In this document: positions 29,378 to 59,200 of the stretch, one piece after another
Layout of the letters: each line of letters opens with the position of its first letter
How positions within the stretch are numbered: position 1 is the stretch's first letter
Assembly (NCBI GenBank): GCA_021108215.1
Contig: JAIORK010000048.1
Location: forward strand, 1 to 61,959
DNA from: a bacterium
Lineage (GTDB): Bacteria; Oederibacteriota; JAAXVQ01; JAUVAV01
Direction of reading: 5' to 3'
DNA: 61,959 nucleotides
Made by a program: the position numbers and the translations under genes
The notes under the pieces: generated by a model
Seen by the model: only the letters and a program-made list of their open reading frames with translations
What the model was told of the DNA's origin: nothing
The model's database searches: none

Positions 29378-29504
29378 CACTTCAATTGCCCAATTTTTTA
29401 TAAATTAAAATTTTTTAAACCTGTAAAAAAAAATACTATTTTTGTAAATTATAGTTTTCCAATAATATCCTTTTAAAACAGCTGTATTATTTTTGCGTTG
29501 AATT

Positions 29505-29533
29505 TTGACTCTGCTATTTTTCGGTGATATACT
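29505..29533 (+). promoter_or_regulatory. Promoter of the first giant gene, TTGACT-17-TATACT
   Basis: TTGACT (29505-29510) and TATACT (29528-29533) are separated by 17 bases, the optimal spacing. The flanking bases (TATTTT..CGRTGA) also match the promoter at 53134-53162, so the two upstream regions are homologous. Confidence 0.8.
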
Positions 29534-29551
29534 TTAAAAGGCAAGAATTAT

Positions 29552-29608
29552 TTGAGTAAATTTTTGCAGATTTTAATAGAAACAAAAAATTGAATAAATT
29601 TTTGCAGA
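29552..29608 (+). repeat. Direct repeat in the 5' leader of the first giant gene
   Basis: TTGAGTAAATTTTTGCAGA at 29552-29570 recurs as TTGAATAAATTTTTGCAGA at 29590-29608 (one difference, 38-bp period). A related GAGTGAATTCTTGCAA occurs once in the leader of the second giant gene near 53189. It could be a regulator or RNA-binding site in the leader. Confidence 0.6.
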
Positions 29609-29641
29609 CTTACACAATAATTGTATAACGGGGTGATGATT

Positions 29642-32600
29642 ATGATGCACTTACATTTAATCATGAATAAAGGAAAAAAGACGATGGATGACTTCTGGCG
29701 AATGCTGCGGGAGCGGCAACGCAAGATCATTTCACTGATCATCGCTGTAACCTTTGTGTTCAGCATGACCGGTATTGATGTGATCTTGGTCCATGCGTTT
29801 GACCAGAATCATCATGAAAATTATAATCAGATGGATGATTTGTATGCGCCGGCCAACCCCCTGGCGGATAGCAACCCCGATGCGTTTATTGATATTTCCA
29901 CAGATGAAAAATCCAGTGACCCCATTATTAGTGACACAAAATTAAATGTTTTAAAAGCGGAGTATGGAGATCTGCTTAATACGGTTTCTTTGCAGACCGT
30001 GGCTGAGCGGTCAACCAGTGGTGTGAATCTTGAGTCCGCGGTTATCAATGCATTGCAAGACCAGGGGCAATTAACCGGTACCGAGCAACCGGTGGATTCC
30101 GGCACTGAAATGATGCCGGAAATCGATCCGACGTTGATTGCTGAAGCAGCGACGACCGGTCAGGGCCCGCTTTCGTTTACCCTTGAGCTGGGAAGCCTGG
30201 ACATTGGTGTGCGTCAGGATGAGGGAGGGACCGGTATTGTGAAACTTCCGGTTCCGGTGGTTGCAGTTCAGGAAGAGGAGCCGCAGCCGGAGACAACGGA
30301 CACGAGTACGCAAGTGGCGGAAACAGAAGAGGACACTGCCGGCGCGACGATTGCCACGAATGAAACACAGCCGCAAGCGGATGTCGCAATACTCCAAAGT
30401 GAAGACCAAACCGATCAGAATCAAACAGTCCCCGTGGATACGGAACAAGCTGAAACCCAGGAGATCGTAGACCTCCCGGATATCCAGGATTCCGAGCAAC
30501 CGGCCGAGACCACGGAGACAGAACAGGCGGAAGAATCTGAAGGTACGTTGATGGATCTGGCCAATGAATTTCTTTCCCGCCTGGGATTTGGGACAGAAGA
30601 CCAGAAGGATGATGTGCTCAATGTTGAAGAGGTCGCGGTGGAAAATGAAGCTGAGACAGCAGGAACCCAAGAAACGCAGGAAGAAGGCAATGAAACAGTA
30701 GACCCGGAAACTGAAAATACCGAAGACATTATTGTGATGACAGATACTGAAGGTGAAGAAGGAGAAGGCGAGGCAACCCCGGGGACGGAGGATGAAGAGG
30801 AAGGTGAGGTTGTTGTCCCGGGCGAGGAGAGTCCTGAAGAAATTGCCGCCAAAAACGATGAGGATGAAGGTGAAGGCACGGAAGAAGAAGCGAGCCTGCC
30901 TGATTTGATTGCGGCCTTGCTGCTGGGCGAAGATGAAGGCGAGACGGAAGGTGAAGTTGATACGGAATTATTGGAAGCGATTATGGATGAATTTCCCGAG
31001 GAGCTGCCTGAGATTGATACGGGTGAGGGAATGGAAGGTGAAGTGGATATTTCCGCTTTGTTGGATGAGATGGGGATTGAACTCGATAACGAAGGCATGC
31101 CTGCTGAAGCGGAAGAACTCTCGTCGGTATTGGTGGAAGAAGATGCACCCGATGCGGAGCAAGGTGAAGAAGTGATTGAGGAAGATACCGGATTGGAAGA
31201 TGCGCCGGTGACCAATACGGATTCAGAGCACGCGGAAGAAGATGAGACCAGCCTGGTCGGTCCTGAAACCACGATGAAGGAAGAAAAACTGGTTGAAGAG
31301 GAAGAGGAAGAACCTGAGGAAGGAGATCCGAGTCCGGAAGATGTGGCGGAAGCAGCAACGGTGGCGAAAGACGATGTACTGGAAAAAGATCTTTCGGATT
31401 TTACCAAAGAAGCATCTGCGATTAATGTTCTCAAGAGTATGAATCTTGATCTTCCCAGCGGCGTGGAAGCCGGTTATTTGAAAAAATTGGGAGGCAGTTT
31501 TAAAGACGGATTGAATTTGATTACCGGCAAAGACAAGCTGGATACCCAATTTCTCAAAGGCATAAATGAGAGCGGCGTGGACCCGAAAAATCTTGAAGTT
31601 CCCGAAGAGATCGGCATGACGGTTCAGGCACTGCCTGAGCAGATTGATGTTAATATGAAGCTGGTCATGGGTCAGGTGAAAGACGATATTAAAAAAGGCA
31701 AGGATGAGATCGGCCGACTTAAATTAATGAGTGTGATGGCGGTCGCAGGGCTCTTGGAAGAAGGCAGTTCAATCCCGGATGCGCCCAATGTAGATACCGA
31801 TCCTGTGTATCAAGATTGGACCGGGAGTCATAGTGTGAGCGGGAGCGATCCCTGGACGATTTCAGAAATGTATAGCCATCCGGAACCGCCCGAGGAAGAG
31901 CAGCCGGATCCGGAATGTTCGGATTATCTTTCTTTTGGTATTGTGCTGTTAATTTTCGGTATTTTTGTTGAATTTGAAAATTTCCTGGAAAATCCCAGTT
32001 GGGAATCATTCGGTGAATTTCTCTGGGCCATGTTTGATCCGGTCGGTCATATGATTTATGAACTGGTTAATTTTGACTGGGATGAACTTGCCGCTTATGG
32101 TGAGTTCGCCCAATCGCCGATAGGCAAGCTTATTATGTTTATTATCACGATTATTCTCACCATCGTGACCTTCGGCAGTGCCGCGCCGATTCTGATTGCC
32201 CTCATTATTTTAATAGAACTTATTCAGATGTTTGTTCCGCTTCCTAAATGGTTGGATATTGCACTCTCGATTGTCAAAGCAGCTTTGGGTGGATGGGCCA
32301 GCGCGATCAAGGGCGTGATTAAGCAGGCACTTAAAGTTACCATGGCAATAATTATGGAACTTCTTAGTACCCTGACACCAGCTGTCATTAAATCCATTAT
32401 TAAATCCATCATTAAAGAAATCCTTATGCAGATTATGGCTGAAGTGCTGCCGGATGACTTAATGATTTTGCGGACAGTTTTGGGTCTGGCAGCAGATGTT
32501 TTGGCCAGCGGTCTGGCAGAATTGCTCACCGGCGGCAGCTTGGAGGATATTGGTGCTGCTATGCTGGAAAGTTTAAAGAATATGTTTGGTCTTAATAGTA

Positions 32601-35600
32601 CTGCGGATATGAGTACGTTGTTAAAAGTGATAACATCATCAGCAGTACGCGCCATTGTCGTGGTCTGTATCCAGGTGGCGATTATTGAGAATCATGATAA
32701 CGCAGGGCAGGGAATGATGGCCGGGGCCATCTGGGGTGCTGTGGCCAGCGGAACACTGGGCTATATTGGACAAAGTTTTGGGACAACAAGGCCAACAGAT
32801 GCCATGGATGAATTTATGATGGCATTAACCCAGATCGCGGCACCGGTGGTTGCCGCATCTCTGTCAACTTTTATGCAGCTTTATGGGTCACAGGATAATG
32901 AAGATGCAGGATTTGCGCGCAATCAAACCATGCTGATGGGCGACATTCTTTCCTCTTTTGGTACGCTGATGGTGGGTTCCTATTCGCCTGGCATCAACGG
33001 GGGTTACTCCAATCTGGTTACCACGGTAATGGAAATGGTGGCACCCGTCAGTGCCGGATCTGTCCGTACGGGTGATATCAGCAATGCGATTGAGATCAAA
33101 GAAGGTGATGGAGAAGGCGACGGTGATGGTGACAAAAGTGGTAAAGGTGTCAAGGGTACTAAGGGTGTGAATGCGGGTAGTAATCTGGTGGGAACCAGCA
33201 ATGTCATTAGTGATTTTGATGGTCTGGCACCTAATGGCCTGGCTCTGGCAGTTAATAATGCATCATTGTCCCAACCGATGGAGGCAGAATTGGATTTAGG
33301 CGATTCTGAGGTAGAGACGGAGGATGCGCAGGATAATTCTACCAGCAGCTCAGTTTCTAGTGATAGGCGCTCGAATAAATCTTCTCAGAGTTCCTCACAT
33401 CATGGCATGAATTCACAGACCAAGAAAAACCAGCCGCAACAACAGGAAATAAAAAAAGAGACACCAAAAACAAGTAGTTCGATTAAACCGCAGACCAGTG
33501 AACAACCGCAACAGGTTCAGCAAGATACTCAGGAACAGGCGCAGACTTTATACACCTCGTCGACCGATATAACCAGCGAGGAGAATCTTTTAACCAGCAG
33601 TGCAGATGGGGTTGACCGGCAGGATGCGCCGATTGACCGGAATAATTCCGATCATAAGCAGCAACAGGAGCAGCAACAGATTGAAGTGAAGGACCTGAAT
33701 AAAAAAATGGCAGGCAAGACGATTGCCGAGCAATTATTAGAAAAAAACAATTCGGTTATTAAAGAAGAAGGCCGTCTTGATGAGGAAGGAAATAATATAG
33801 CTGCCAACATTAAAACTTCTGGTACCGGCGGCGGCGGTGACGGTGATGGTGGCGGTGGCGGTGGCGGTGACGGCGCAGGCACAGGGGGCAAGGGATTGAC
33901 GGGAACCGGCGGCAGCGGTACGAATGTAACAGCCACCACCAACATGGCAGCTATGAATTTGAGCCAGCAGTTGCAGCAGTCCGGTAATACAGGGAATCTT
34001 CCTGCGAATTACCAGGCTAAATCCGGGTCAACCACTAATTCCTCTACCATGAGTTCGGGCATGGCCAAGAATCAGGACCATCTCCAAACCGCCATGCAGG
34101 CATTGAAAGCAGCGGATGCGCTGCCAGGTGGTAATCCCAGTCTTAAGGTGGATACATATATAAATGAAGCCGGTAATAATATGATGGCAATCAGCCAGGT
34201 CAATGCCGATGGTTCCACCAGTTTGCTTTCTGTTAGTGAGAGTCTTGGGGACCAGACTCTGACCACGGTATTCAAGCCCAATGGCAGCGGCGGTTCTACG
34301 GCAAGCACATTTGCCGGTGATGCGAATAATGCCAAGCAGATAGGTCCGGAGGTTGATGTCAGCCGTAATTTGACTGAAGGATTTAATCCGGCCGGAGAGA
34401 AAGGGTTTAACAGTACTGGCCCGGGCGGTTCACAATCTCGCGGCGGTTCTCATGAAGGTGACCAGATTGAACTTGTGGATGATCTTGATCCGGTTACCGG
34501 CAGCCAGAGCAATGGTGCCAAGTATGATGAATCCGGTAAATTAATCAAACCGGGACAAGGTGAAGAAATCGCGCTCGGTTCAGCCGGAGAATCCACACTT
34601 GCCGGAAAAGGCGGCACAGCTGATTCTTCGGCAGTTGCCGGATCACTGGCAAATGGTGAGCAGGTGAAATTGACAGTTGATGGAGCAGGCAATGTCCAAG
34701 TCAACGGGACGTCTGAAGCACTCCAGGATTTAATGGCAGGTAAATCAGAGACCGTCACCCTGCCCAATGGCGAGACTGCAACGCTTAACTATGATGCCGG
34801 CACCGGGAAGGTTTCAGTCAATGGCAGCTCCACTGCGCTCCAGAGCCTGCAAGATGGCGCAGGAGGAAGCGGCAGTATCGGCGGAACCCGTTCTATGGAT
34901 GTTAAATTGCCCGGAAACCGGGATGCCACGGTTTCGATTGACGCTGCCGGTAATGTATCGATGACCGGCAATCCGGAGGAGCTCAACAGCCTCAAGGCTG
35001 ATGGCGGCGGATCACTGGATGTCACCCTGCCTAATGGGAAATCGGCTACGATTGATGTGGATGGCAGCGGGAAGATGACCATGTCCGGATCGATGGATGC
35101 TTTGGGTTCGGCCATGGACAAGGCACGCAATACAGCCGCTCCTTTGGCTGATATGAGTGGCAAGGAAGTGACGCTTAAACTTAAAGACGGCCGGAGCGTA
35201 ACTGGCACAGTCAGTCCGGATGGTACCCAGTTGCTGATGAATGAAGATCAGGCGGCAAAATTAAATCCAGGTGGGAATGACGGCCAGAAGACTAACTTAG
35301 GCAATGATCCCGGTAAGACACCCCAAACCCGGGATATGCAGATTACGATGCCGGATGGTTCAAAAATAGATGCAACGGTCAGTGAGAATGGACGGCAGAT
35401 TAATTTGAACCAAAGCGGTGATCAGAACGGTCGCGGCGGCGGCGGCGGATCCGGGGAAGCTAAGCTTTCAGATCAAACCAAGTCAAGCGATAATCCACTC
35501 AATCCTTCCGCCGACAGTCAAAATATTGTAAACGATCAAAACCAGAAATCCGAGTATACGACGGGCAGAACCAAGCAGCCTGAGGCTGACAATTTGGCTG

Positions 35601-38600
35601 AAGGTCAGAAAATTATTCCTAAAAAAGCCAACTGGGCGCAAAGAATAGTGGGCAAAATTTTTGGAGTTGATGTCAATGGGTTTACCGCAATTCAGCAGAC
35701 TTTCACGGTTGAATTGGATGGCAAGGTTTTAGATATAACGTTTGAACCGCAATTTCTTATAAACGCCACAGATGCCAAGACGTTTATGGCAATAGATCAA
35801 TTTGGCAATGATTTTATGGTTTCAGTAAAACCTAATGGAGAAGTATTCAGCATTACACGCTCGATAAAAATCGGTTCCTGGCATCATTTCGTTATCGCTT
35901 ATGAAACCGTTTATTCATCAAATCCCGCTAGTATCGGCCAGGCGGTTACCTATGATGAGAACGGTCAAATCTACAGTGTCTTCACGCGTGATCCCCAAAC
36001 CAGTGAGTGGAAGATGACGTTTAAGCGGGACTATACGAATGACGCCAGCGGCATGCAGGTTTCTGCGCTGTTGGATATTAAAGACCTACAGTTACCGCCC
36101 GGCGCCCGGAAGGCCTTGATTTTATCGAATCCCAATGTGATTGCGCAGAATCCTTATTTTAATCAAATGATGGAAGACATGGGAATTGACATTCGTTCGG
36201 AAGAGTATGGTGATCGGGTGAAAGCCCGTGCCATGGTTTTGGCTGCCGAGGGTGTTCGGGCGGCACAGGTATATTTGCAGGCAGTAAAAACAGAACTGGG
36301 CCAGAATGAAACGGTTGTTAATATTATGGAGCAAGAGGCATTCAAAACCGCAATTGCGGTTTTGGCGCAGACCCAGGTTACGCAGTACTGGCTGGACAAT
36401 AGCAAAGTCACCATTAACACGATTGCCACCAATGCACTCAGAGGGAATGATCCGGCAGTCATGCTCATGGCAGCGAATTTAAAAGTTTCTACTGCCGAAA
36501 ATGTTCAGGCAGATATTTTGGTCACAACCGCTATGAATTTGATTGAAAATTCCAAGACAATGCCCGTCTCAGTAAAGCTGGAACTCTCCATTCAGGCTAT
36601 GGAGATTTTAAGTGATGCAGGTCGTTCGAACAACAGAGCGTTTAATTCAGTAGCTCAGTACGCTGCTGGATTGATTAAAACCCGCGGGTCATCCTCAGCC
36701 GTTAATTTTGCTCAAGCTGTCCGTCTGCTCAATGTGAGCGATCAGACCGTTATCGACCGCGCCATAATAACTGATTTGCAGATTTTGGTGACCAACACAG
36801 TCAATGAGTACGCTGCGAACTTGGCACCCACCAAATCGGTTAATATTGCAAATGTAGGCATCTTAACCCGGTCGGTGGATGGACGTTTGTTCCTGACCCA
36901 GGAAGCAAATGGCTTTGGAGTCACGATCAGCTTTACACGCGATGATTCCCAGTCCAACAGCTGGGAACAGATCGAGAGCATTTCAATTAGTGATCAACAG
37001 GGTGAGCGCATTACCTTTAAAATGCAAGACGGTTCTTTAAGCCTTTTTCAGCATCGTGTGACAATGAGTATGGAAATAAATGGTCAGGATACTACGCGCA
37101 ATATTATGGTCAAGGCGCATATGGTTGTCGAGAATGGGACGAAGGCTACGGCGTTTTTCAAGGAAGACGGCAAAGACTATCTCCTGGAAATCAATCTTCA
37201 GACCAATACTGCGATTGCGACGCTTCAGTTTGATCGCAGTTGCCATGATTTTATCCAGCAAGGTTTGCCCGACGCGTTGGTATCGCAGAACAATGTATCC
37301 TTTATTATTGAAAATGGGAAAGCATTTTTCATTATTAATGGTCGCCGTGAAGCAGCCAATCAAATCCCGGAAGTCAATGCGAAACATTTAACGGCACTTG
37401 GCATACCGGAGAATTTAGCGTCTGCAATCGTCAGTAATTTGACGGGGAAGCCGGCTTATATAGCGTCGGATGGTACGCTCATGATTGGATCACAGGCGGA
37501 AATTTTGGCTGGGAAGTATTATGTGGCCGGACGCAATCAATTCACCGGTAGTACTGAAACCCTGGGATATTTTGGGCAATATGAAAATGGTATTATTAAC
37601 CGTGTTGACCTTTCGGATAAACGAATTATTTCATATTTAAATGGCGGCACGCAATATTATACAGTCACCCAGTACAGTCCGGATAAAAAACGCGTCATGG
37701 TATCGTTGTACAACAACGGCCGTCTGACCGGATCAAAGTTGATTCTACGCGATTTTAAAAATTTGGAGCTCATTTATGATGTTGAGGGAAACATTACTCC
37801 GGAAAGTTTACGCAGCCTGCGTACCCACGGGATCGATGGGATTTCTGTGAAATTCGATCCGGGTCAGGGTTTCACGATCCGCAATGAGCAGACAAAACAG
37901 GAGATCAAGTTCAGTATGTCCGGGCGTCATATGCTCGAAACCAATGGTTTTGATGATCCTAAGGGCAAAACCACCCCCAAAGGATTGCAGGAGTCCGCGG
38001 AATTTGATGTCAAACGTTCCATGTCTTTCAATGTGGCGGGTTATCACAATCAAGGTGTGCGCGTCACCGTGCATACCCATGAGAGCTATTCCGTTACAGT
38101 CAGTGTTAATAATGCCGGGAAATTGACGCGCGTCCTGACACGGACAGATTTTTTCCATGCGCGCGACCAGTTTGTTCAACATACCGAGGGATATGTTTTC
38201 AATCCGCAGACAAGTCAGTTTGCCTGGATTTTGCAGCAAGTCCGTGCCTCACAAGCGTATTTGCAGGAAAATAATTATTGGCCGCAGCAGGCCTTTGATG
38301 CCAATCGGGCTGAGACCAATTCGTTGAATCATCTTCAGGCGGACCAATATAACTTGTTCGCAGTAGGGATCAATCAAGATAAGCTCACATTGATGGGCAA
38401 GACCGGCAATGGTGCCATGGGTTTCTGTTCCGTTGAAGTGAAACCCAATCATCTGGGAGAACAGGTTATGCACTATTCCTTCGGTGCTACCGGCACGCCG
38501 GAGCAATTGAGAGAGCTGGGGCTGAAGGTCGATGATCTGCGGAAACAAAATCAAGCCGATCTGGGTGAGCGCCTGATTCTGGATGAAAATAAACGCTACA

Positions 38601-41600
38601 CTGTGGTGAAAAGCAATGGTTCGCATACCCTGCAGGGCCAAACCGCCAATGGAACCATGGCGTTTGTCACCGTGGATCGCAATGGTCGTTTTACCTTTGG
38701 CGGAACCGGCACTGTTGAGCAGTTGGACGAATTGCAACTTAGAGCTTCTGATTTGCTCAAAGTCAATGGTGAAGATGAGCGCGGTGATATTTCGCGGGAG
38801 ATTAAGGGAACCCATGATGGACAGTATACTGTGGTGGAGAGTGAAAACGGCTCGCATATACTTCAAGGCAAACTGGGTGATAAAGAAGGTACCACGGCAT
38901 TTGCAACCATTGATAAGAATGGCAAGTATAGCTTCGGCGCTACCGCAGATCTGGAAAAACTTGATGATTTGGGTTTCCGCGCCAATGAGATAAGTAAAAT
39001 GAATATTGCGGATGAGCTGGGAGAGGCTTCGCGTGAGGTTTTGTCAACCGACAGTGAATATACTATGGTTGAGACCGAAGCCGGGATCAATACCCTGCAA
39101 GGCAAGACCCGGAATGGTGCCGATGCATTTGCAACCCTGGATGCGGATGATAATTATAGTTTTGGCGCCACAGCTGAAGATTTGGCCACACTTGATGCGC
39201 TGGGCCTTAAAGCGACTGAAATTGCTGATTTAGCAGTGAAAGATAAAGGTAATCCAGGGCAAAAGAAAGATAGAGATATTGGCGCAAAAGATGGGAGATT
39301 TACAGCGATCGACAGCTTCAAGGAACAAGGGAAACATGCTTATACACTCCAGGGACGTGCAGGCAATGGTGCTGATGTTTGGGCAACACTCGACTCAAAA
39401 AATAAATATTCCTATGGTGGTAACGGGGATTTAAAGCAGCTGGATGATTTGGGGCTGGATGCTACCAAAATACTCAATAAGACTATTGCTGATAATAATG
39501 GCGAAATTCCCCGTACAATTCAGGCAGATGATGGCAAGTACACTGTAGTGCAGAACCGGAATGCGTTTACACTGCAAGGGCTTGCATTTAATGATGCCAA
39601 GGCCTTTGCGACGCTTAAAAACGGCAAGTACACTTATGGCGCGACCGGCAGCACCACCCAGCTGGATGATTTGGGACTTAAAGGAACGGATATAACCACA
39701 CAAAATCAGGCGGACGCAGCGGGTAAAAAATCACGCACCATTTTAGCGGACCATAACGGTGATTATACAATCGTCCAGGATGGGAGTTCACGCACACTCC
39801 AGGGTAAAACCGCCAATGGTGCCAATGCATTTGTCACGCTTGCAAGGGGAAATAAATATTCTTTTGGCGCCACATCATCTGATTTGAAAGTGCTGGATGA
39901 GTTGGGACTCAATGCCAGCTATTTGGCGGGGCGCGCCTACAATGACACTGGCAATGGCGAGACGGTGCGTCGTTCCATTGGACGGCGTGACGGCGTATAC
40001 ACCGCCATTGATAGCGGCGGCGTATATACATTGCAGGGTGTTGCAGCCAATGGCGCCTCGGCATTTGCCACACTCAGCGACGGCAAATTTTCGTTTGGCG
40101 CTTCCGGAACAAAGGAACAACTCGACGCGCTCGGCCTGGAATGCTCTGATCTGCTGGAAAAGAATGCAGCGGACAAGGCAGGAACTGTATCCCGCGGTAT
40201 TCATGGAGATTCCGATACAGGCTATTATACCGTTGTACAAAATGGCGATGTCAAAACACTTCAAGGCGTACTTGGTGACAAGACAACCAAGGCATTTTTC
40301 TCGAAAAATACAGTGGAAGGAAAATACAGCTTTGGTGCGACAGCCAACCGGGAAAAATTGGATGCTTTAGGACTCAAAGGATCGGATCTTCTGGATCATA
40401 ATGCTGCGGATCAAGCAGGCGAGGCTTCGCGTCTGATCTCAGCTGATGAAAATGGATTATACACTGTAGTTGACAGTTATACAGGCTTCACACTTCAAGG
40501 CAAACTTCTTGGTGACGGAAAAACCCAGGCGTTTACCTCCAGGGATCTTGATGGGAATTTTAGTTTTGGCGCAACCTCCACTTCCATTGATAAATTAGTT
40601 GGTTTGGGCTTGCGCTCCGAGGATATTTTAAAACTAACCGCAGCGGACAACCGCGGCGCGGGCGTCGATCGCACGTTGCAAGGGAACGAGAAGAATGAAT
40701 TCACAGGTGTGGATGCCAATGGAAGCTTTACTTTACAAGGCAAGACGCTGAATGAGGCAGATGGTTTTGCCACCCTCGATGCACAGGGAAATTATTCGTT
40801 TGGCGCAAGCGGTACATTGACACAGCTCAATGCATTGGGTCTGCGCGGCAGCTGGATGCTGAACAATAATACAGCCGGCAGCTGGGACCATTCCCGCAAG
40901 ATTCAAGGGCGGGGCGAGAATAAGGATGTCTTTACGGTGGTTCAGGGCGCCAATACACGCACCATACAAGGAAAACTTCTCAATGGCGCAGATGGATTTT
41001 TAACCTACAACGCAGAGACCAAGGAGTTTACCTTTGGTGCAACCGGCACACAGGCTCAATTACAGGCGCTCGGCCTACGCGGGAATTATCTGATCACAAC
41101 CAATCGTGCGGACAAGGGCAATGACGGCTGCACGGATTCGCGTCGCATCAAGTCGCGCACCGGCGAAAACAATATCAAACGCTATACCATCGTGCAAAAT
41201 GGTAGTAACCGGACCTTACAAGGAAAATTAAATGACGGCACAGTGGCGTTTGCCAGCGTAGATCGCGCCGGAAATTATTCCTTTGGTGCGACTGCCAATG
41301 AAGCCAAACTTAACCGTCTGGGTCTGCGTGGTTCAACGTTACTCATACGCAATGCAGCAGAAAGTCAACATCCTGATTCACGTACGATACTACCTGTTGA
41401 AAGTGATAAATATACTGTGGTTGAGACCAAAGGGACGGATACATTACAAGGTCTTTTGAATGATAAAAAAACCTCTGCCTTCCTTAGTGTCACCAAAGGC
41501 GAAGACGGCACACGTGTCTACAACTTTGGTGCAACTTCCGAAGACTTGGTTAAGCTGGATAACCTTGGTCTGGATGCCACAAAAATACGTGATGCATCGG

Positions 41601-44600
41601 CCAAAGGTCATGGTGGCAAGCGTACCATTTTTGGCAAAGATGGAAAATTCACAGCCATTGAATCTTCAGCCGGTGCATATACGTTACAGGGTATCACAGC
41701 CAATGGGGCAACTGCTTTTGCAACCATTGCTGCAGATGGTAAATTCACCTTTGGCGCAACCGGTAATGTAAAGCAATTGAAAGAGCTGGGTCTGCCGGTT
41801 GAGGATTTATTATTAAAGAATGAAGCGGATGCAGCGGCATTCTTAAAAGACGGAGACTATGACAAGGCGGACGGTCTCAACCATGACCGCACCATCCAAA
41901 AAGATATGGATGGCAAGTATACAGTTGTTGAAAGTGATGGCTCTTTCACCATGCAGGGGAAACTAGCGAAAGGTACACCTGCCTTTGCAACCCTGGACAA
42001 AGAAGGCAAATTCAGTTTTGGCGCGACCGCTGCTCCGGACAAATTGAAAGCACTCGGTATGCCGTGTGATGACCTGATTGAAAATAGTGTCAATGATAAA
42101 TCAGGCAATTTCTACATGGGGACACATAAGGTCGAAAAGCGTAGAATCAAAGCAGACGCAGAAGGCCGCTACACAGTGATTGTTAATGAAGAGAGCGATA
42201 TGACCTTGCAAGGCAAAACCGCCAATGGCGCGCAAGCCTTTGTGAGTCTCTCTGATGGCGAGTATACCTATGGCGCGACCGGTACGGATAAGCAGTTGGA
42301 TGGTCTTAATCTCAAGGGAAGTTATCTAATAGAAAAAAATGGTCTGCTGCCGGCGGATAAACGCATTGTGTCCGCTGATGGACGCTATACGATTGTTCAG
42401 AGTGATAAGAATTTCACCCTCCAGGGTAAAAATGCAGCAGGCGAAAATGTTTCCTTGTCACGAGATGAAGGCGGCGGGTACTCGTATAGTGAGACGAAGG
42501 TGCGTACTGATAATGAAGGCAATGAAGTCAGCGTGGGTGTTTCCACTCAGTTAGATGTCAATGGCCACCTCAGTGGTGAGACCAATGTCTCAGTAGGTAT
42601 AGGCGAGGATGCAGCCTCGGTCAGCATGGGAAAAGGTCTGACTATCTCGATTAATACAGACAATGAGGTTGTTCTTCAAGATGCCCGGGGTGTAAAAGAA
42701 GTTTATTCGCAGTCCGGTGAACGTGAAACCGGCCGATGGCAGCGTGTCAAAAATGCCGGAAATAAATTCACTAATTATGTTTCGCAATCCTGGAAGGCTT
42801 TCGGCAACCGCTTCGACGCGATTTGGAATACTTGTAGTTGGAATGGGGAAAGCAACAGTGTCTGGAGTGTTATTAAATGGATAGGCGGTGCATTCGCCAC
42901 CGTGGGGGTTGCCTTATGGTCTGCTATTGCCACAATTGCGTATACACTTGAACTTATCTTGACAGTTATTTGGGAAGTTGTGGAGATCGCAGTGGTGGCA
43001 TCTTTGGATTACAACCCGCTCACAGCCGGGCTTTCATGGGTGGTGGGTGAGTTGACCGGCAAGACCATGGGTGAATGGCTGCTGGCAGGGATCAAAGAAG
43101 TGGTTGAGATCCTTTTCATTCCGATTGATTTTATCTTTAAATATGTAGGCATGGCTATTGCCTGGATTGGCGAGCAGTTCTCACTCATGTCAGAAGCGCT
43201 CTTCCACTTTGCCGGGCAGACCAATAGTTTTTTCCTTCAAGCCATTGCATCGTACTATGGTGCCTTGGCCTTTGTGGTTGGGTTTGCAGGGCAGTTTATA
43301 GGCGAAAATCTGGCGATTATCATTATTGTCGCCCTCTCCATCATCGTTCCTGCATTTGCTGTATTCGGCATGATTTTGCTGGCCAAAGACGCAATTCTGC
43401 ATGGTGCGGGTAATATGTTCCGAACATTTTTTATTGAGCCCTTTACCAAACTGGCACATGGTTTTAGTATGTTTGCGCATATGAATCAACTTGATAATGA
43501 CATTTCTACGGTTCGTGTTGTCACCCAGGCTTTGTTGGTGATTGGCGGCGCCCTTGTCGGGCTGGTATTTGCCTTCCTCATGATTAAAGGCATGCTGGCC
43601 AAAGCCAAGGGTCTCTATGAAAAGATGTACACCAAGAAAACGGTCTCTAAAATTCAGAGTTCAGCGCTCTCGCCGCGTCAATTGGCGAAAAAAACCATCG
43701 GTGACTTGGTGGGTGAAAAAGCCGCCAAAGGTCTTAGCCCGGAAGTGGCCAACATGACATTTGGTAAGTTACGATTCTCAAATCATAAAGGTACGATCAA
43801 CAGCATGCTTGCAAAGCGCGGCGGTGCGACGAAAGTCAGTAATTTGCTCAAGTCAAAGCAATTCCGGCTCAGTGAGTTGAGTATGAATGGTAAACCCTTG
43901 ACATCAGTGTTGACAGCCAAAGCACTCGGATTCAATGGTTTCCAAAGAGGTATGATGGCAGTCGGGTCTATGCTGGGAGCTTTTTTCATCCATCAGGTGG
44001 ACATCTTCCGTCATGCCGGTAAAGCCATGTTCAATCTGGCTAAAGGCCGGGTGCACTACACCACAAAGGCAGGAGTGGCCAAAACAGCGGACATCCGCAG
44101 TACCGGCCTGTTCAAGAGCGTTTCGAAAGGCGCAGTCAAGATGATGAATGGTGCGCGCTCCTTGGTTAAGGGCGGCCGTACTACTGCGCAGCCATCAAGC
44201 AAAGTCGCAACAGTTGAAAAAGGATTAACCTCAGAGCGGTCCGGCAGCACGGAAAACGTGAATGTATCAGAAGCCAAACCCGGATCAACGACACGGGGTA
44301 ACAACACAACCGTACGCAATCAGACTGGGCCGGGACAGGGGACAACCCGGCAACAAGCACAAACTGTGAAAACAATGCAGAGTAAACTTACAACAGCACA
44401 GGCAAATTTACAAAAAGCACTCGCCGGCGGCAAAGCCACTGCACGCCAAATTGCCGGGCTCAAGGGCCAGGTTACCAAAGCTCAGAATGCTCTGGCCAAG
44501 TCCATGGGCATGACGACCAGTCAGATGAAAATGCAGCTGGCGCAGGAAAATTTCGCCAAAGCAACCTCGCAACAAGGGCGTGCTGTTGCCAAGGCGGAGA

Positions 44601-47600
44601 TTTCCCGGCTCAATGCAGAAGGTCGTGTTGAATCTGCCAAGGGTCGTCAAGCAGCCAAGCAGACCGAGATTGCCAAGTTGAAGAAGCAGATTAAGGATTT
44701 GGGGAAAAATCCGGAAGCCATGGAAAAACGCCAGTCCTTGGAACGCAAGCTGGATGCAGCCAAAGCGGAACAACGGACAGCAAAAATGGATATCCAAAAG
44801 GCAGAGGTGGAAATGGAAGCTGCCAATCTGCAAGGCGAAATGGCCAAGACCCAACAGAAATTGGAATCCAAATCATTAAATAGCAACGCCCGGTCAGGAC
44901 TTCAAGCCAAAGTCGCCGAACTCAAAGCCAAGTTAAATCAAAATTCACTCAAGCAAAAAGCGGCAGGAACACAAAAACAGATTGCTGATTTGGAAGCCAA
45001 GCTGGATCGTATGACCGGTGACGCTGAAGTGCGCAAAGCATTAGCTGAAAAAGGCGGCCTTGAGCGGGAGATGGCTACGGCAGAAAAACAATTTGCCAAA
45101 GAGCAAGAAGCCGTTGATAAAGCGCAGGCGTCCCAAAACCAGAGCATGGTGAAAGATCTGCTGAATCAGGCACAGAAGACCAAAAAGTCAGGTATGGAAA
45201 ATGCCAAAGCCGGGACCCTGGAAAAAGCCCTGGACAAGGTTATCAAGGAGTTAGGTTCGAAAATCAACAAGACGGCACTTAAGCAGATGATTGCGGATGT
45301 GCTGCTCGCTGATCCTTCAACGCGTCGTACTGCCCGGCAAATGCGTGAACTCTTCAAGGGTGAATCCGGCAAGCAATTACTAAGAGATATGGCAAATAAT
45401 GGGATGAAAAATCAAGCTCAGAAGTTGTTTGATCAGCTGCTCAAGGAAACCGGGCAGACACTTACGGAAGGTATGAAAAATGCATTGCGTGAGCAGCTGG
45501 GCTTGCGCAACGGGATCAAGGCTTCCAGTAAGCTGAATCGCGGAATCATGGAAAAAGCTTTGGAAGATGTTTTTAGCATGAAGCGGGGCACAGGACGCAA
45601 TCAACTGCTCAATGAGGGGCATGCCCGGGCAGAGTATAATGCCAACCAACGCATGATCAATGAGGTACAGCAATTGCAGGGTAAGTCAAGCGCAGAAGTA
45701 CAACGTGGGTTGGAACGGGTTCTCAATGAGCGGTTTGGAAAAGCACACAAAGAAATGGGTACCTCGAAATTTGTACGCAAATCCACCATTCATGAGGTGG
45801 CCAAAAATCTTAGTGCCAAGCAGCTTCAGAAACTACTTGCTTCAGATAGCCCGATTGAAATGCTCAGAGAACTTAAAAAAGGGCCGGGTAAAAGTCTGAC
45901 TGAGATGAATGCCAAGGCCAAGGTATTGACTGCTGCTGAAAAGCCTTTGGTTGAATCATTGGTCAAGAGTGAAGCAGGCACGCCAGGTCTCAATACGGCA
46001 GGGGCGGTCAAGCGCATGCAGCAACTGGCGACTGCCAAATGGCAGCATCAGCAAGCTGTTGCCAAACTCAATCAAGCCACCACAGCCAAAGCACGTACCA
46101 GTGCGCTTAAAGCGGTAGACAAAGCAGCCAGTAACCTCGAAAACGTAAAAAGCATGGCAGATGCAAGATCTGAGGCGGGCGGGTATATGAGTGAACTGGG
46201 ACTCAAAATTAGTAAACAAGGTGGTTTAAAGGGAAAGGCCTATCAGATGCTGCCTGAAACCATCAAGGTGCGCCAGGGTCTTAAAGCAGCAGCAGCTGAG
46301 GCGGAATTAGGCACTGGTTTGCAAATTGAGAAAATCATGAAAGCCAAGGAAGCTGTGGAAAAAGCGGTTCAGGAAAGAAAAAGCATGAATGTGGATAAAG
46401 CCAAAGCAGCGGTGAATGAGCTGATGACCTTGCGTGAAAACATGATTAAATTGGAACAGGTATCAGAGAAAGCAGCGCAAGCGCATCGCCGGAGTCAGTC
46501 GCAATCAAAGGGTCCCAATTCATCGCAGGTCAGGAAGGCGGCCCAAGCGCGTACTGAGGCGCAGAAAAATTATGATATTATGAAAAAGGCATTTGATGCC
46601 AAGATGGCGGAACTCAAATTAACTAAAGCGGATCTCCAGAACCTTTCCAAGTATGATCAGGCTTTAAGCGCTGCAGATGTCACCTCAGCCATTGAAAAAT
46701 CTTGGAATGATACATACAAAACGCTTATTGAAAAAGCGCGTCAAAGTGGGAAACTTCAGGAATATGAAAATAGTATAAAGCGGTTTGATGCGGAGATCAA
46801 TAAAGTGTTGGATCAAGTATCTGCAAGCGAGGTGAAAGTCAAAGGCGGTACTGCTTTCCATGAAGCGTTCATGAAATTCCGTGAAAACTATTTAAAAACA
46901 AACGGAATTGAAATGGGTTCAGCCAAGGATGTTCAGATGATCCAGAGTTATTCCCAACGGGTGATGGCCAAGATCACCGGTTATCCCGGTCTGCGGGTTG
47001 CGCAGCAGATCATGCTGACGGAATTTTTACGCGGCAATAATATTGGTTTGCGTGCCGGTGGCGGCAAGACCCTGCCCTTTATTATGTTCCCGGGCCAGAT
47101 CCGCATGCTCATGGGCAAGGTTTTACGTGCGGAGCTGCTGGTGGATGATCCGGCTGCGATTGACAAGTACATTGGTGAATCATTCGGCAATAAAGTAGGC
47201 GGTAGGAGTATGGTCCATCAGGATCTGGCCAAAGCCATGGGTATTGAACTGGTCAGTGGAAACAATATGTATAAACAGGCTCAAAAGACCGGAAATTACA
47301 GTGAGCTAATCAAAACATTAAATGATCCTACCAAGACGGTTATCTTTGATCACACCACGCGTGCCCATCTGCGGAATGCTGCGATGCGTAATGCAGGTTT
47401 ACACAATGCGCTGAAGAGTACCAATCTGATAGGGATTGATGAAGTGCATATGCCGGCTACCAGCCAGACGTCCGCCATTGTGGGAGGTAAGATCAAGGCA
47501 CCTACTGAGGCAATGATGAAAAATGTGAATGATCTTTTGGATGCATTCAAATTTGAGTCCAAAAGTTTTGAGAAAGTATTTGAAAACTATCAGCAAAAAT

Positions 47601-50600
47601 ATATCAATAATAAAACTGCTTTTGCCGGTAAAAAAATTATGCTGGGTGAATTTGAGGTGGTACACGAGGGTCACCTGACCAATGCCAAGGCTGCGCAATA
47701 TAATTTACGAGGCCGTAAGACCATTGTGATCACAGAAACCGAGGTTTTCCTCAACACCAAAGCTCAGCAAGCGCTAAAGAAGTTTAAGGGCGCAGATGTC
47801 TCTTCAGCCATCAAGACTTTGTTCTCACAGCAGGGTAAGGCCGGTGAGTTGAACGCCTATGCAGTTGAGAATGGCTATATCTATCCGGTGGATAACCTGG
47901 GTAAGATTCAGTACGAGCAGATCAGCAATGATATCACGGGCCAGATTGTAGCTGCCCGTAAAGCCGGACTCCGGCATCCTTCCCGCGCGGTGCGGGTCAA
48001 TACCACTTCCATGCAAACGTCACTCTCTGCGATGTATGCGGGGAATAATGGAGCACGGATTGTGGGGGCATCCGGCACCATTGCAGGTCTGGAAAATTTG
48101 ATGCAGAGCAAAATCGGTTCAAACTCAGTTCACTTGTCAACCTCGCGGTTTAATGTGCAGGGAGATATTCTGAATACCGGGGGTAAGATTCTGACTGATC
48201 TTGCAGCTGCCGACCGTATTGTGATTGACTCTTTGACTCGGCAGCGCCGCAGTGCGTTGGTTTTTGAGACCGATCCGGCCATGCAGTTAAAATTAGTGGA
48301 AACCTATATGGCCAAGATGATGAAGAACATTGACAGCACACAGGTCCACAAGGTCGACGGTCAACTGGTCAGCAAGGTCAACGGTGCGCCGGTCATCAAG
48401 GTCAACGGCAAGCTGATGGTCGCCAAGGTCAACAACATACCCTCGATCAGTGTAATCAGTGCCAGCGGTACCGGTTACTATGTTCCAGAGGGAACAGCAG
48501 CCCAGTTGATTAAACAATTGAATCTGCGGGACGTAAAAATCCACACGGCTAAGAAGAATGCTTCGCCGGTTAAGGGACTTGATTATATTCAGGTCAAGAA
48601 GGCCGGTATCCAGACGATTGTGGAGGGTGTGGGCAACAAGGCCATGCAGGGCAACCATATCTGTATTATCAATGAGCAGGCGGCTGTGGGTAAAAATTTC
48701 CAAGCTGATTTAACCCTGGTCGCCCGCAACACCACAGGGCTCACAGCAGATATGTTTACCCAGCTACTGCTGCGTAGCGGGCGTCCGGGCGGCAAAGGCC
48801 CCAATGGCACATGGGCCACAACCCGTTATGCAGTCATTGATCCGGTTAAGCTTCAAGCCAATCTGGAGCTTATCAAGACACGCAACGCCGAGTTGGGCGA
48901 GATTTGGAAGAGCGATTCACAGATGGCCAATCAGATGACGCAGTTGTTGAAAGGACTGAGCAAGACCGATTTGAGCAAAATGGACTTTAATAATCAACAA
49001 ACTTTGTCCAATGCCTTGAAACTCAACGGCGAATTCCGACAAGCTGAGTTGGTGGGAAATGCCACACGCTTTAGTGTTCAGGACACCTTTAAAGATAAGC
49101 TCGTGATTGAGCCCTTGAAAAAGGCCATCCAGAGCGATTCGTTTGCCCAGCAAACGACTATCCAGAGAATTTTGGAAAATCAGATGAGTAAAGTGCTCAA
49201 TGAGCGCGCTTCTAAAGTGGATGTCTCGCTCAAGATTCAGAGTGGGCTTCAACCACATGAAATAAACAATCAATACGCACGCAGCACCTTCTTAGCCAGT
49301 GTGCAGCAGGCACGGGGCGTTTGGGGTTTCAAAGGCGTCCTGGGTCAAGCCCTGATTCCGACCAACTTCTTCCGCGGTGGTTACAAGCTGGTGGGCATGA
49401 GTCTGTGGACATACGGGAGATTGATGTTCCAGGCCCCAAAGGTTGTCAAAGCCGCGCCCTTGGAAAATGCCAAGAGTTTCGCTGATATCCAGGTGGGTGA
49501 ATTTCAGAAGCTTTATTCGGTTGGGCACAATCTTATGCAAGGTGTGCTTTCCTTGAACAGCGGCGGTATGCAGGCGGCTAAGCTGCAAAATGCAACCGTG
49601 GCCATCAACCGGGCGGTGAATCAGAACCGTACACCCAGTGCTGCAGAAACAAGAGATTTTCGCAAGGCATGGGGCGAGAGCAACAATGCCATCAGGAATA
49701 TTATTAACAAGCACGGTTATACCACTGAGGCAGTTAATATGGCTGCCGAACAGCTGGGTGTGACAGCCAATGTGGCAAGAATTGCCATGGCGGAAAACTT
49801 TCATCAGGCCACACAGATGCTTCAGCATCAGATGCGCAACAATCGTCATGTGACTGGTATCCCGTTAACTTACGAAGGTCCGGCTGTGGCACCGGATGCA
49901 TTGCCGGAGCTTTCCAAGCCCATACAATTGGCAGGTATGAATCGTTTTGGGAAGTGGATAAAGGGTCTTCCCATGGTAAGCCCAATGCTCAATAACTTCG
50001 ATGCGCGTATGGCATCAACCGCCGCCGCCGCCGTCCAGATTCGCGAGGCTGAGGCCAATTTCAACAGTCCGACCTGGCAGGCACAGAACCAAACCCAGGT
50101 TGACTCATTTAAACAACGGTTTGGCGACAAGTGGGTAGCAGGTGCCATGACAGAAACTTATGGCCCGGATATGTCCTACTTGAAAAGTTATAACAGCAGC
50201 AAGACGGGTATCCAAAGAACTTTTGCCGCTTTGCGTCAACCTGCTCAGGGTCAAAAGGCTTATACCCAGACCCTGCACAATATTCAAACCGTGAGTCAGC
50301 GTTTACCGGAATTGCAGACGGATTTACATAAAACAATTACATATCAAGGTCAGACCATGAGCCTAAGTCAGGCTAAATTGTATTTGAATAATCAGGTGGC
50401 GGCAGCATCATCGCTTGCAACCCGCTATGGGCTGAATCAAGGTAAAGCACTGAACTTCCTTAATAATAATAACCATTGGTCAAAGCAAGCTGATGCAGTG
50501 GAGACCCGGGCCAATGTGATGGCGCGTGCAGCAGCCACCGGATTGGATCAACAAAATTGGTTCAGCCGTGGCATGGATTATGTGGGGCAAAAGTGGCAAG

Positions 50601-52705: not shown

Positions 52706-52750
52706 ACAAAAGGACCCTGGTGTAAAAATACACCAGGGTCCTTTTGTTTT
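52706..52750 (+). terminator. Rho-independent terminator of the first giant gene
   Basis: A stem of 17 or more pairs (AAAAGGACCCTGGTGTA and its complement) closes on an AAAA loop at 52725-52728 and is followed by a T-rich TTTTGTTTT. It begins 13 bp after the stop and shows that the giant gene is transcribed separately from its downstream paralogue. The A-run on the other side could allow weak action on minus-strand transcripts. Confidence 0.93.
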
Positions 52751-53133: not shown

Positions 53134-53162
53134 TTGACTTTCGTATTTTCCGATGATATACT
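53134..53162 (+). promoter_or_regulatory. Promoter of the second giant gene, TTGACT-17-TATACT
   Basis: TTGACT (53134-53139) and TATACT (53157-53162) with 17 bases between, and a spacer nearly identical to that of the first giant gene (both end CGRTGA). The ATG follows 65 bases later with a GAGGTGA Shine-Dalgarno. Confidence 0.8.
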
Positions 53163-53227
53163 TATACTGTCTAAAAGCAACTAATTGTGAGTGAATTCTT
53201 GCAATTAATGGTAAATGAGGTGACGGA

Positions 53228-56200
53228 ATGATCGGATATTTTCGGAGAATTCTATTCAAAATAGATAAATATATTGATAAAAACGTGCAAAAGTATTCGC
53301 GAAAAGTTATTTCTTTGCTTATCGCTGTGTGCTTTGTATTTTCCATGACCGGGTTGGATACAATTTTAGTCTATGCATTTGAATCTGACTATCATCAACC
53401 GGGTACCACCCTGGATAACCCTGCGAACACACAATCGTACAGTGATTTTGTCGGAAATAATCAACCGGATGCCTTCCTTGATATTTTAACCACAGAGACA
53501 GATCCGAAAAATAATGAAGCAACCGTAAATGATACGACTTTAAATGTGCTCAAATCAGAATATGGCGATTTGCTGGACACGGCATCGCTTATGACAATCG
53601 CTGAACGATCCCTGACAACCGGCAGTCTGGATACGGCCGCCAACCTGGTGATGACAAACCAAGATATTTTAATGCCCGTGCAAGAACCATCCTCGCAGGA
53701 AAAAGATCAAGTGACATCCACGGACCTTCAACAGACAGAACAGTCGGAGCTAATGGAAACTGGATCACTTACCGAGATCATTGAGATGGGCGGCATCGAA
53801 ACGGAAAAGCGGCTTGATGAGGCGGGTGAGCAATCAGATTACCTCCCAACCGCAGCGGTTGTTGCCAAAGAAAATGAAGACACCGCTTCCAGCGAACCGG
53901 AAGAGACACAAGCTACAGATGAAACCGATCCGAGTGTGGAAGTGGAGGTTGTCAAAGACTTCGATGATTCACAACCTCAAGACGTCATTGACATACCTCA
54001 GGAAAATGAGAACGATGTAATTGAAAACGCAGATATAATTGAAATTCAAGATGATCAGAGCGTGGTGGAAACAACTGAGGAGAATACGGACAATGAAAAC
54101 CAGCTGCCGGAGACCAACGGAAATCAGGATGATTCCGGATCGCTGATTACAGATGTTGCCAATCGAATTAAAAGTTTACTGGGTATGGAAGAATCGGTGA
54201 AAGATGAAATACTGGAACAACCGGAAACACCCGAACACGATATTCAGGTAACCGGCAAGACAGATAATAATGTAGTGACAGGAACGGTTGATGAGACCGA
54301 AGCCGACACGGATGGTCAAAGCAACCAGGAAACGGATAAAGTGGCTGTGCCGGCAGAAAAAAACCGTGGTGTTGAAGATCTGGTTGAAAGCGAAGCGGAT
54401 GATACAGAGCAGGAGGGTACGCCCGGCGAGGATGACGAGTCTGAGGATGTTTCCAAAGGGGAAGAAGAGGAGGAGGAAGAGGACGAGGAGGGGAATGAAT
54501 TCTCCGATCAAGTTTTGGCCATGCTGGGAATGTCTGATGAGCAGGCAGATGAAAGTGATCCGGAGAATCAACCGGACACCCCGGATGAAGGGGATTCGGA
54601 GTTGTGGATTACAGAAGGGGATGATGAGCCGACCACCGACGAGGTGGCGGTTGATGTTTTAGTGCCTGTGGAGGAAGCCTCCCGGGGCAACATCAAAGAT
54701 ATAGATGAAGATCCATCACCGGTTTTGACGGAGATGGATGAAGAACCGGCAGGTGAAATCGAGCGCGACGATACGGACGAGGGCAAGGGTGATGTTCCGG
54801 TTAAAAATACAGACTCAGAGCTGGATGATACCAATGAAATTGCAATCATTGGACCGAAGACGATTGATAAAAATGGAGATGATAGTGAGGAAGACCCGCA
54901 AATACCATCTGTGGATTTTGTGTTGGCCGCTGCGGTGGAGACCGATACCACGCCGGGCAGCATTTCACCGCTGAATATAGATGATAATCTTACAGCTTCG
55001 CTTGTGTCCGGTCCGCCGGTTTCCCGGAAAATTGATACGGTAATAGGCACTATTACAGAATTGGTGAATCAAAGTATTGTGCAAGTCACAGGACCGGGCA
55101 GCAATACAAATCCAACAATCCTGCACACCAAAGTAATCGGCACACGGGAAGTCATCAAACCGGCTGAAAAAAAAGTAGCCGATACCATCGGCACGGCACC
55201 CAATTACAGCACACTCTCACGAAGTGAAAATATGATTCAGGGCGCGGTCAGTGGCAATGGCAATAACACGCAGCAGGATTTAAAGGTTTATGCGTCCATG
55301 AATTTATTTGATGTCCTCAGCATGGCATCCGACCGGTCGGGGCGTACAGACGGCCGGGTCCCGCCTTTGCCGGATGTAGGTCTGGATGATGTTTTTGCTT
55401 CCGCCTGGCCGGAATACAGTACAGCCGGTTGGGACGCAATACAAGAGGAGTATGCCACCCGTCACCACCATCGCAATTCTCCGGAAGATAAGCTGGACGA
55501 GCCGGATGGTTGTGCGGCATTCCTTATATCGCCGCTCGGCAAGTTTACCATGTTTGTATTCAGCGCAGTCCTGACAGTGGTGACCTTGGGAACCGCGACA
55601 CCCTTGCTGCTCATCATCATCATCACGATCCAGTTTTTGTTGACTTGTGTACCTATGCCTGAAGAATTGGCCACGCTATTGACCATTGTAAGCATTGTCT
55701 TGTGCGCCTATGCGGCAGCGATCAATGCTGCAGCCAAGGCCGGGGAAATAGCTGTGAAAGAATATGCCAAAAAAAGTCTGGAAACCATGCTTAAGAACAG
55801 TGTTTTTAAGCAGGAATTCATCAAAAAGGCACTCGCACCATTATTGGTCATGTGTGTTATAGAGCTATTCCCGGATGCCGGTGTATTGGAAATTGCCATG
55901 GTATCCTTGCTGGCTACCATTGTGTCCAGTGGTGTTGCCGCCGAGCTTTCGGGAGGAGATTTTTGGGGCGGCATTCTGGAGGGTCTGCAGGATACTTTCT
56001 TGAATGAAGATGTCAAATTTACCGACAAAGAAGGAAGAATAGGTGCGTTTCTTACATCAAAGTTTGTCAAGGTGATTGTGGATTTGACAGTATCCGCTGA
56101 GGTTGCCGGGTTATTGAATGATACAAAAATCGGAAAAATCACAGGCATGATGATGGGCGCATTGACTGTTGGATTGATTGATTTTACGGTAGCGGCGGAA

Positions 56201-59200
56201 TCATGGACTGCCGCTGATAAGATAAAGCCGGAAGTAGGAGGTTCTGATTTATTAGAAACCATTGTGGCGCCGATTATAAGCACCGGCGTGAGTGCCTATT
56301 ACACTCATTTTGTGGCACCTCATGATGTGGAGAACGGTTATTCGGAACGACAGGCGCAAAACTTTGGAAACAAATTAGGTGAGTTTATGGGGGCAATGAT
56401 TCCGACTTTTAACTCGACCACCTCAAAGTGGGTCAATGTTATCACCCGGTTTTCTGATGCCATGGATAAACTGTTCTCATCGCCGGATGAGGTGGCGGGT
56501 GCCAGTGCCAGTTCAGATACGAATCCTTATGACGAGGGCGGTTCGAAATCCGACAACCAGACGGGATCTGACAAAGACGGCGAAGCCGGTGTGGATCCCG
56601 GACATGATCCTGAAACCGGAGTGGCCATCAATGAGAGTTATGCAAGAACAACCGGGGGGGAGGCGGATGGTGCGGAAGCATCACCTGGAGTGAGTCAACC
56701 GGGAAAAACCGTAATCATCGCAGAAAGTGTGGCTGCGGAAGAAATCGGAGAAATGGAATCAACCCAGCTTCAGCCTGGCTCGGAGTTTGACCAAGCCGGT
56801 ATTCCCCGGCAAACAGATGATTCCCAACAACAATCCCAAAAGCCCCCGGAAGTGGTGGAGGATCAGGGAAAAAAAGGCTCCGGGAACGAAAAAGTGGTCA
56901 ATGATTTGGATAAACGCCGGAATGAAGAGGACGCATCCCGGCAAATTATTCCCCAGGAGAAGCAAGCTGTCCCAAATGCCGAGGCGCTCTTGCTTGACGG
57001 CACCATCATGCCGGAAACAGAGCTGCAGGAGGAAAAGACGAACCTGGATGAGAGTCGTGAAGCGGTGGAACCGGAGCCGGGAAAAGAGGATCAGTTCAGA
57101 GCGGAAAAAGAAGAGCATATGGAAAAGGGTATTATGGATTTGGAGGAAGATATTCAGGAGGATATTTTACGTCGCGACGAAGACCTGCTCAGTGAAGAAT
57201 CAAGCAAGGTGGATCATACCGGCGGCGGGGAGGGTTCTGAAGAAGTCAGTGAAGACGAGCAGACACAAAAAAACAATAATGAGTATAAACAGCAACTGCA
57301 AAATGCTGCAGCCACAGGCGAATTGCCTGCCATGTATACCCCGGCCATGGCGGGTGAAACCGACAAGACCTCTATTCAGTCTTTGGAACCTAAAGCAACG
57401 GAAAATTTGCAGGCGGCAGGTGATGTTCTCAATAAACTTCGGGCCGCGGACATGCTTCCGCAGGACAGGGCGGACCTGACTATTGAACAATTTGAAAACA
57501 GCAATGGTGATCAGGTGTTGCGGGTTTCAGGTACCGGCGAAAATGGTGAGCAAAAAATATTGGCAGCCAGCGTACAATCCGCTGATGGAAATGAATATAC
57601 CACCTTGTTTGGCAACAATGCGGAAAACCAGGCAGAGGCCGCCCCCTCGGCCGTCACCTATACCAATGGTATCGCCGATGCGGATATTCAGAAAAATAAT
57701 GACCAGGAAAATCTTGTCCCGCCGGTTAAGGATGCAGCGTTTGGACCCGGTCTGCGGGGTCCTCCGGAAGGTGAAAAAAGTTCCCCGGATAGTGACCGGT
57801 TGAATGACGCATTGGCAGTCGAACCGGCAGCACCTGCGGGAATACAGGATCCCAGGCAAGCGATCAATGCCGAGTTGGCTGCCGCCTCTCAGTCCAGTGA
57901 CGGAGCGTTTGAGAAAAAGAAAGGTCCTCAGCCGGGCGAGAAGGTTTTGCATACAATTAAGCTTCCGGACGGCACGACAACCCAGGCGGAATTTGAATAT
58001 GATCCGGATAAAGCGTATCAGGAGGTTGAGGCGGATAATGGTAAGACGTATCAGCTATCCTTCTCGGAAACCGGCGAGGTTGTTCAAACGCTTGAAAAGA
58101 GCTTGCTGAAAAAATCGTTTTTTGGTGCGCGTGTGGCTTGGATGGATGTCACCACCCAGGCGGTCCAGAATCCTGACGGACAAACAATTCAACAACCTTC
58201 CCAGCTTTATGGTCAGAAATTGCTGTTTGCCCGTGATGGCAAGCTGGCGGAAGTCTGGGAACAAAATTCTGAAGGGAAATGGACCCAATCCCAGACAACG
58301 TTTCAAGCGGAACACAAAGGTGTTCACTATGCAGCGCTGCTGGATGCGGACAACCGGCAACTGCCGCCGGAAGAATTGAAAAACAAGGTCATGCTGCACA
58401 ATGCCCGGAATGCCCAGGAGATTTTTGGAAATGATCCGTATTATTCCCGGCATGTTCTGGCGGACCTGAAAAAACAGGGAATCACACCGGATAGCGATAA
58501 TTTTCAGGAAGCGTTCAGTCGTGCGGTTCACACGCTGGCAACGGACATGGCACAGACAGCGGTTCAGGATGCGAATCAGTACGCAGATATACAACTACCG
58601 GAGAATGCAGCGTATAAGTCCGCCAGGGGGATGGTGGCGCGTTCGGAAATGACCCTGGCAACAGTGGATCCCACCCAAGTCCGGCCAAGCGAGATTACAA
58701 CGCATGCCGCCGCCTCCGGGGATGTTGAGGTCATGCATCAGGCTGTAAATTATGTGACAAAGGCAGCCGAGCGCAACACCTTGGCGGCCGCAGCGCAGCA
58801 GACATTTGAGCTGAGCCTGGGAGATGCGGGCATCCTGCCGGTTGAAAAAATCGAGATGGCGTTGAATACCATGGAAGTGATTGCTGCTGCCGGCGCGGAG
58901 CACACCGCAGCTTATTCCGGGATATTTCAGCAGGCACAAGCGAATGTAGAGGATGCCCTGCTCGCAACCCGGCCGGATGGGATTGCGCTGGCCCAGGCCA
59001 TACGTCTCAATGAGGTGGTGCCGGCACTTACGGCAGATGAATCTTCATCCGGCACCAGTGAAAGCACCAGCCAACTGGATGTGATGGAAACAGCGGATGA
59101 ATTTTCATCCGCCACCAGTAAAAGCACCAGCCAACTGGATGCGATGCACCGGGATGTGATGGAAACTGTGGAACGGTATGCCGAACCGCTCCAGCCGGGA

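Follow-up and report, generated by a model that had tools for sequence, protein, structure and literature searches.

An extended -10 promoter class that probably serves the giant genes of an uncultured bacterial lineage

The near lack of recognisable protein domains makes the giant genes of uncultured bacteria difficult to study. Among the closest described systems is Candidatus Velamenicoccus archaeovorus (Omnitrophota) with a giant open reading frame of 39,678 amino acids (aa) (PMC10066038), and giant genes also occur in other PVC lineages (PMC12057145). The giants described here resemble those of Omnitrophota and PVC bacteria in being very long, domain-poor predicted surface proteins which contain transmembrane (TM) segments and occur several to a genome. 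For Apilactobacillus kunkeei, which belongs to an unrelated lineage, the abstract describes a cluster of consecutive giant genes, Giant1-5, that occupies 6% of the genome, and mentions no common promoter class (PMC12863079); in the genome studied here, giants are likewise consecutive and their open frames sum to ~9% of 3.56 Mb. In the open PMC papers searched, no description of a common promoter class for giant genes was found.

The promoters reported here resemble sigma70 extended -10 promoters (TGn / TRTG) of E. coli and Bacillus in the TTGA of the -35 element, the 17-nt spacing and RTGn directly before TATAnT, and the region 3.0 motif HMIETIN of the E. coli and Bacillus factors is also found in the primary sigma factor here. 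TGn is present at ~20% of E. coli promoters, and the extended -10 element is contacted by domain 3 of sigma (PMC4496709). In E. coli it serves genes of all kinds, whereas here it is strongly concentrated on giants, at which TATACT and TATATT are commoner than TATAAT.

Two giant genes and their promoters

The window, that is the whole stretch of 61,959 nucleotides analysed, carries two giant genes on the forward strand. Giant gene 1 (29642..52693, +; 7690 aa counted from TTG 29621, ORF 29621..52693) likely starts at ATG 29642 behind the ribosome binding site GGGGTGAT (29630-29637; site and start codon together 29630..29644, +), a GAGGTGAT-like signal common to homologues of this gene, while TTG 29621 is a mechanical start. 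The encoded protein has a signal-peptide-like N-terminus and 15 TM-like segments, and searches against Pfam, NCBIfam and PDB sequences revealed no convincing match. Giant gene 2 (53228..61957, +) starts at ATG 53228 behind the ribosome binding site GAGGTGA (53217..53230, +), encodes more than 2910 aa and runs past the contig end; its product had no convincing match in Pfam. The preliminary description had stressed the strong divergence of both coding parts. This holds for longer blocks (25-31% protein identity), but the N-termini are clearly homologous (best block 34%), so that the two giants are paralogues. They are separated by a strong hairpin of 19 pairs with a T-rich tract on each side (52706..52747, +), by its sequence likely a bidirectional terminator, and gene 2 therefore requires its own promoter.

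The proposed promoters TTGACT-N17-TATACT were found at 29505..29533 (+, TTGACTCTGCTATTTTTCGGTGATATACT) before gene 1, with -35 TTGACT at 29505-29510, a 17-nt spacer, TG at 29525-29526 and -10 TATACT at 29528-29533, and at 53134..53162 (+, TTGACTTTCGTATTTTCCGATGATATACT) before gene 2, also with TGA preceding the -10 hexamer. The -35 hexamer TTGACT is close to TTGACA, its distance of 17 nt lies within 16-18 nt, and 10 of 12 consensus letters are present. Both spacers end in CGRTGA, as previously noted; this ending contains the extended -10 element TGn, one base 5' of a TAnnnT hexamer (TGA TATACT at both sites), and each site is consequently an extended -10 promoter of the form TGnTATACT. A position weight matrix (PWM) built from relatives only gave 27.3 bits at the gene 1 promoter and 30.4 bits at the gene 2 promoter.

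A chance likeness of the two sites was ruled out by expectation, shuffles and mismatch search. Pairs of TTGACT and TATACT with spacers of 15-19 nt occur twice in 62 kb (0.01 expected; none of 100 shuffles reached two), and the hexamers together with the spacer letters, at up to three mismatches, matched these two window sites alone (0.00 expected). The preliminary description had suggested a genome-wide search for the extended promoter and had named random recurrence of the spacer as evidence against its proposal. Across 3.56 Mb this search returned the window pair only and, with three mismatches, one added site before a third giant gene; the extended pattern is thus confined to giant-gene sites.

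The leaders share the repeat TGARTAAATTTTTGCA (29553..29606, +, with copies at 29553 and 29591 in gene 1, and at 53188 in gene 2). No further window copies were found at up to one mismatch and none was seen in leaders of other genera; it was rejected as a conserved element, being restricted to the two window genes. A search of the leaders against Rfam revealed no known RNA element.

Recurrence at related and unrelated giants

The giants homologous to those of the window, designated class 1, have two further members in the same genome, of 6778 aa and 7831 aa. The 7831-aa giant carries the promoter TTGACTCAGGGTTTTTTCGATGATATACTT, the third copy in the genome. The 6778-aa giant, which lies directly 3' of another giant and a terminator-like hairpin, is without the promoter; in all, two second-in-line giants lack it, one on contig C14 of this genome and one on contig C117 of relative G003. 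Five further genomes of the family and one of the order have class-1 homologues with the same promoter, and all seven exact occurrences of TTGACT-N14-TGATATACTT across 45 genomes of the phylum precede giants homologous to those of the window. Pairwise identity across class-1 loci is 0.92 for the -35 element and 0.98 for TGATATACTT, while the transcribed leader is at background (~0.3). As the promoter elements are near-invariant next to such a leader, the promoter appears to be under selection, in the pattern of a cis-regulatory element. The remaining 14-nt spacer is moderately alike (identity 0.44 vs 0.28 in shifted controls), and what is conserved in it is RTGn and A/T richness.

Copies with one mismatch in the relatives G001 and G005 lie upstream of genes for further long proteins whose signal peptides are similar. 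A profile from three such N-termini matched ~105 loci, most in very long frames, across eight genomes; the genome of the window has ten (2270 to 9482 aa). The three seed proteins of this class 2 were first found via the promoter pattern and the other matches come from the protein profile alone. Class-2 and class-1 proteins have at most the signal-peptide region in common. Behind the signal peptide, several hundred N-terminal residues of class-2 giants (e.g. loci L124, L130, L138 and L146) form a conserved domain with the motif VHIQDLHCNYEVQ..EGA..VTGGFHTERVL, for which no convincing Pfam match was obtained.

The enrichment of the promoter was quantified with upstream DNA of 100 class-2 loci and with controls from 780 kb of other DNA of the same genome and ~370 kb from relatives. 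Within 350 nt upstream, TGnTATAnT is present at 12 of 14 giants of the genome vs 5 of 131 non-giant genes with free upstream DNA (p = 5e-12), and at 75 of 97 giants of relatives vs 9 of 133 such genes (p = 5e-30), where control promoters may be under-detected because the starts of control genes were set mechanically from ORFs. The consensus derived from relatives is ATTTGAMTT-N8-TTTTtnTRTGMTATAMTTAAA. The PWM trained only on relatives separated giants of the genome from controls with an AUC of 0.984; at ≥12.6 bits it recognised 13 of 14 giants and 3 of 256 controls, and the sole miss was the second-in-line giant on C14. When one genome at a time was left out, 92 of 111 giants scored above the 98% quantile of 388 controls; about 17% fell below this threshold, several of them cut by contig ends. 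The assemblies are fragmented, and in the window, too, the contig stops within a giant. At 12.6 bits, none of the 18 tRNA transcription units carries the promoter vs 78 of 111 giants over a similar search span, a comparison that covers tRNA units among the genes expected to be strong.

Control stretches picked to avoid known giants were also scanned with the PWM, which gave 13 hits of ≥15 bits in 1.84 million strand-bases (giant contigs included) vs 2 in a Markov null. The scan exposed a giant of a third type with the class promoter, missed by both protein profiles: a 6526-aa protein with a signal peptide and four MgtE_N-like stretches, encoded on contig C49 at ~180.9-200.5 kb (−; locus L300, 19860-280), with its promoter near 200.5 kb. 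The promoter class thereby offers a sequence handle for giants that escape protein profiles. One of the strongest copies (25.4 bits) precedes a SpoVS gene of 92 aa on contig C36 at ~71.06 kb (−; locus L255, 11066; PF04232, E 2.5e-29), which could be a co-expressed regulator. Strong non-giant copies also belong to a gene that was named LolA-like by eye and had no match in Pfam, to other short genes for secreted proteins, and to a 71-aa ORF. As these genes carry strong copies, the class is enriched at giants yet not exclusive to them.

Reading of the promoter and alternative explanations

On these sequence comparisons, we consider the element to be a sigma70-type extended -10 promoter of a class used by the lineage's giant genes, with a probability of roughly three in four. 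The class spans several giant-protein families, at which it is strongly enriched without being exclusive. Since most giants, unlike most other genes, carry this promoter type, they are probably expressed together. The coordinated expression put forward in the preliminary description is a reasonable inference as well because the element is non-random in the genome and recurs at giants of other genera. RNA polymerase would contact TTGA of the -35 element via sigma region 4, RTG via region 3.0 and TATAMT via region 2, and transcription is predicted to start ~7 nt past the -10 hexamer, near 29540 and 53169. The -35 element, the 17-nt spacing, the extended -10 and the A/T-rich surroundings would together make a strong start with little dependence on an activator. 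Each giant would be transcribed from an efficient start of its own, with a terminator as insulation against the neighbouring giant, and at class-1 giants an upstream block may additionally bind an activator.

This block (29430..29498, +; core TCCTTTTAAAACA..GTATTATTTTTGCG at ~29468-29498) is conserved across genera at homologous giants; across the class-1 family, identity between genera is above background ~25-75 nt upstream of the -35 element. It may be a candidate activator site or UP element and, from its conservation, a better candidate for regulator binding than the spacer. Its sequence AAACCATTGYAAAWCAAG has three exact matches, all of them class-1 giant promoters, and did not turn up at other genes; a wider regulon was rejected, since looser matches look like coding or chance.

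Both promoters could be alike merely through paralogy, the upstream region having been copied with the gene and not yet diverged, in line with the homologous N-termini and the 69% identity of the upstream DNA over 110 bp. This is very unlikely, because the leader is at background across genera next to near-invariant promoter elements, and because the same promoter precedes class-2 giants and the MgtE_N-like giant, whose proteins share no homology past the signal peptide; paralogy alone is therefore disfavoured. A dedicated regulator could also bind over the spacer or just upstream of the -35 element. For the spacer, where the preliminary description had placed such a regulator, this was not borne out and the site was rejected: in the matrix from relatives the conserved letters are RTGn, a known extended -10 element, together with A/T richness, and class-2 giants show no conservation of other spacer letters. 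As the extended -10 element explains most of the spacer conservation, no spacer-bound regulator is needed. The upstream block AAAACC-TT-TAAA-CAAG...TATTATTTTTGCG, conserved between genera at class-1 giants, speaks more for a regulator; it is centred ~27 nt 5' of the -35 hexamer, a position at which class I activators bind. With the block absent from other genes searched, we still regard a dedicated regulator as quite unlikely.

The promoter could instead be a generic strong vegetative promoter of the lineage that drives highly expressed genes of any kind, without coordination specific to giants. All its elements are standard for sigma70, and it is present at SpoVS and at some genes for secreted proteins, but tRNA units, which are expected to be strong, lack it, and it was found at just 2-7% of non-giant genes; this explanation is possible but on balance doubtful. 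The remaining question is which sigma factor reads the class. The genome encodes a primary sigma of 592 aa with an intact region 3.0 (PVHMIETIN) and, on contig C29, a second, group-2 sigma (566-aa frame; regions 2, 3 and 4), also with the H..E of region 3.0 intact (PVHVVEK). A second match to PF04539 of similar strength is present in the relatives G001, G002, G003, G005 and G006. The class could thus be read by the group-2, RpoS-like factor, with the giants as a regulon switched on by a condition such as stationary phase, contact with prey or host, or envelope stress. Besides the presence of a group-2 sigma gene, the likeness to sigmaS promoters lies in a C at position -8 and in TTAA behind the -10 hexamer: TGMTATAMTTAA resembles the C-13/TATACTTAA preference of sigmaS promoters. 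The failure of tRNA genes to use the giant-type promoter points in the same direction. In E. coli sigmaS, residue K173 in region 3.0 favours C-13; the second sigma found here has E at this position, the -35 TTGA is well kept in difference to sigmaS promoters, and the primary sigma is also able to read TGn. Moreover, no second sigma was found in relative G004, which has the most giants of all (31), though its genome is 90% complete. We therefore consider reading by the group-2 factor rather unlikely. An extended -10 class read by the primary sigma probably accounts for the promoters better, as judged from its region 3.0.

The promoter may be the mark of giant genes for surface proteins that are turned on as one set, and whether the giants are produced jointly, and on which signal, becomes a question that metatranscriptomes can answer. 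In its furthest form, a dedicated regulon would place ~9% of the genome, with several unrelated surface-protein families, under one extended -10 class preferentially read by the group-2 sigma, so that the whole surface coat of giants would be produced in response to one signal. We judge this version unlikely. If the giants did depend on the group-2 sigma, this would be a rare case of control at the sigma level over a large share of the coding capacity of a genome.

Giant gene load of the genome

The genome of the window contains at least 15 giant genes (2270 to 9482 aa) and two C-terminal fragments of giants. The open frames that make up their share of the genome lie on contigs C6, C49, C4, C8, C12, C34, C36, C14 and C48, of which C14, C36 and C48 break off within giant genes rich in repeats. 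Type-A giants, with repeats of the TGATVTNT / GSDMYGNVYG type, alternate with type-B giants. The contig ends and this alternation suggest tandem arrays of giants that were broken by the assembly. Similar C-terminal tails are found in the 6526-aa giant (..ITELLSGQGVKIDIKF..KQKLTSTSA), in the window giant (..IIKRLEGLGVGIKLDIQP..KQPKLKTTGAAA) and in homologues of the latter, and this likeness is possibly due to a common C-terminal signal.
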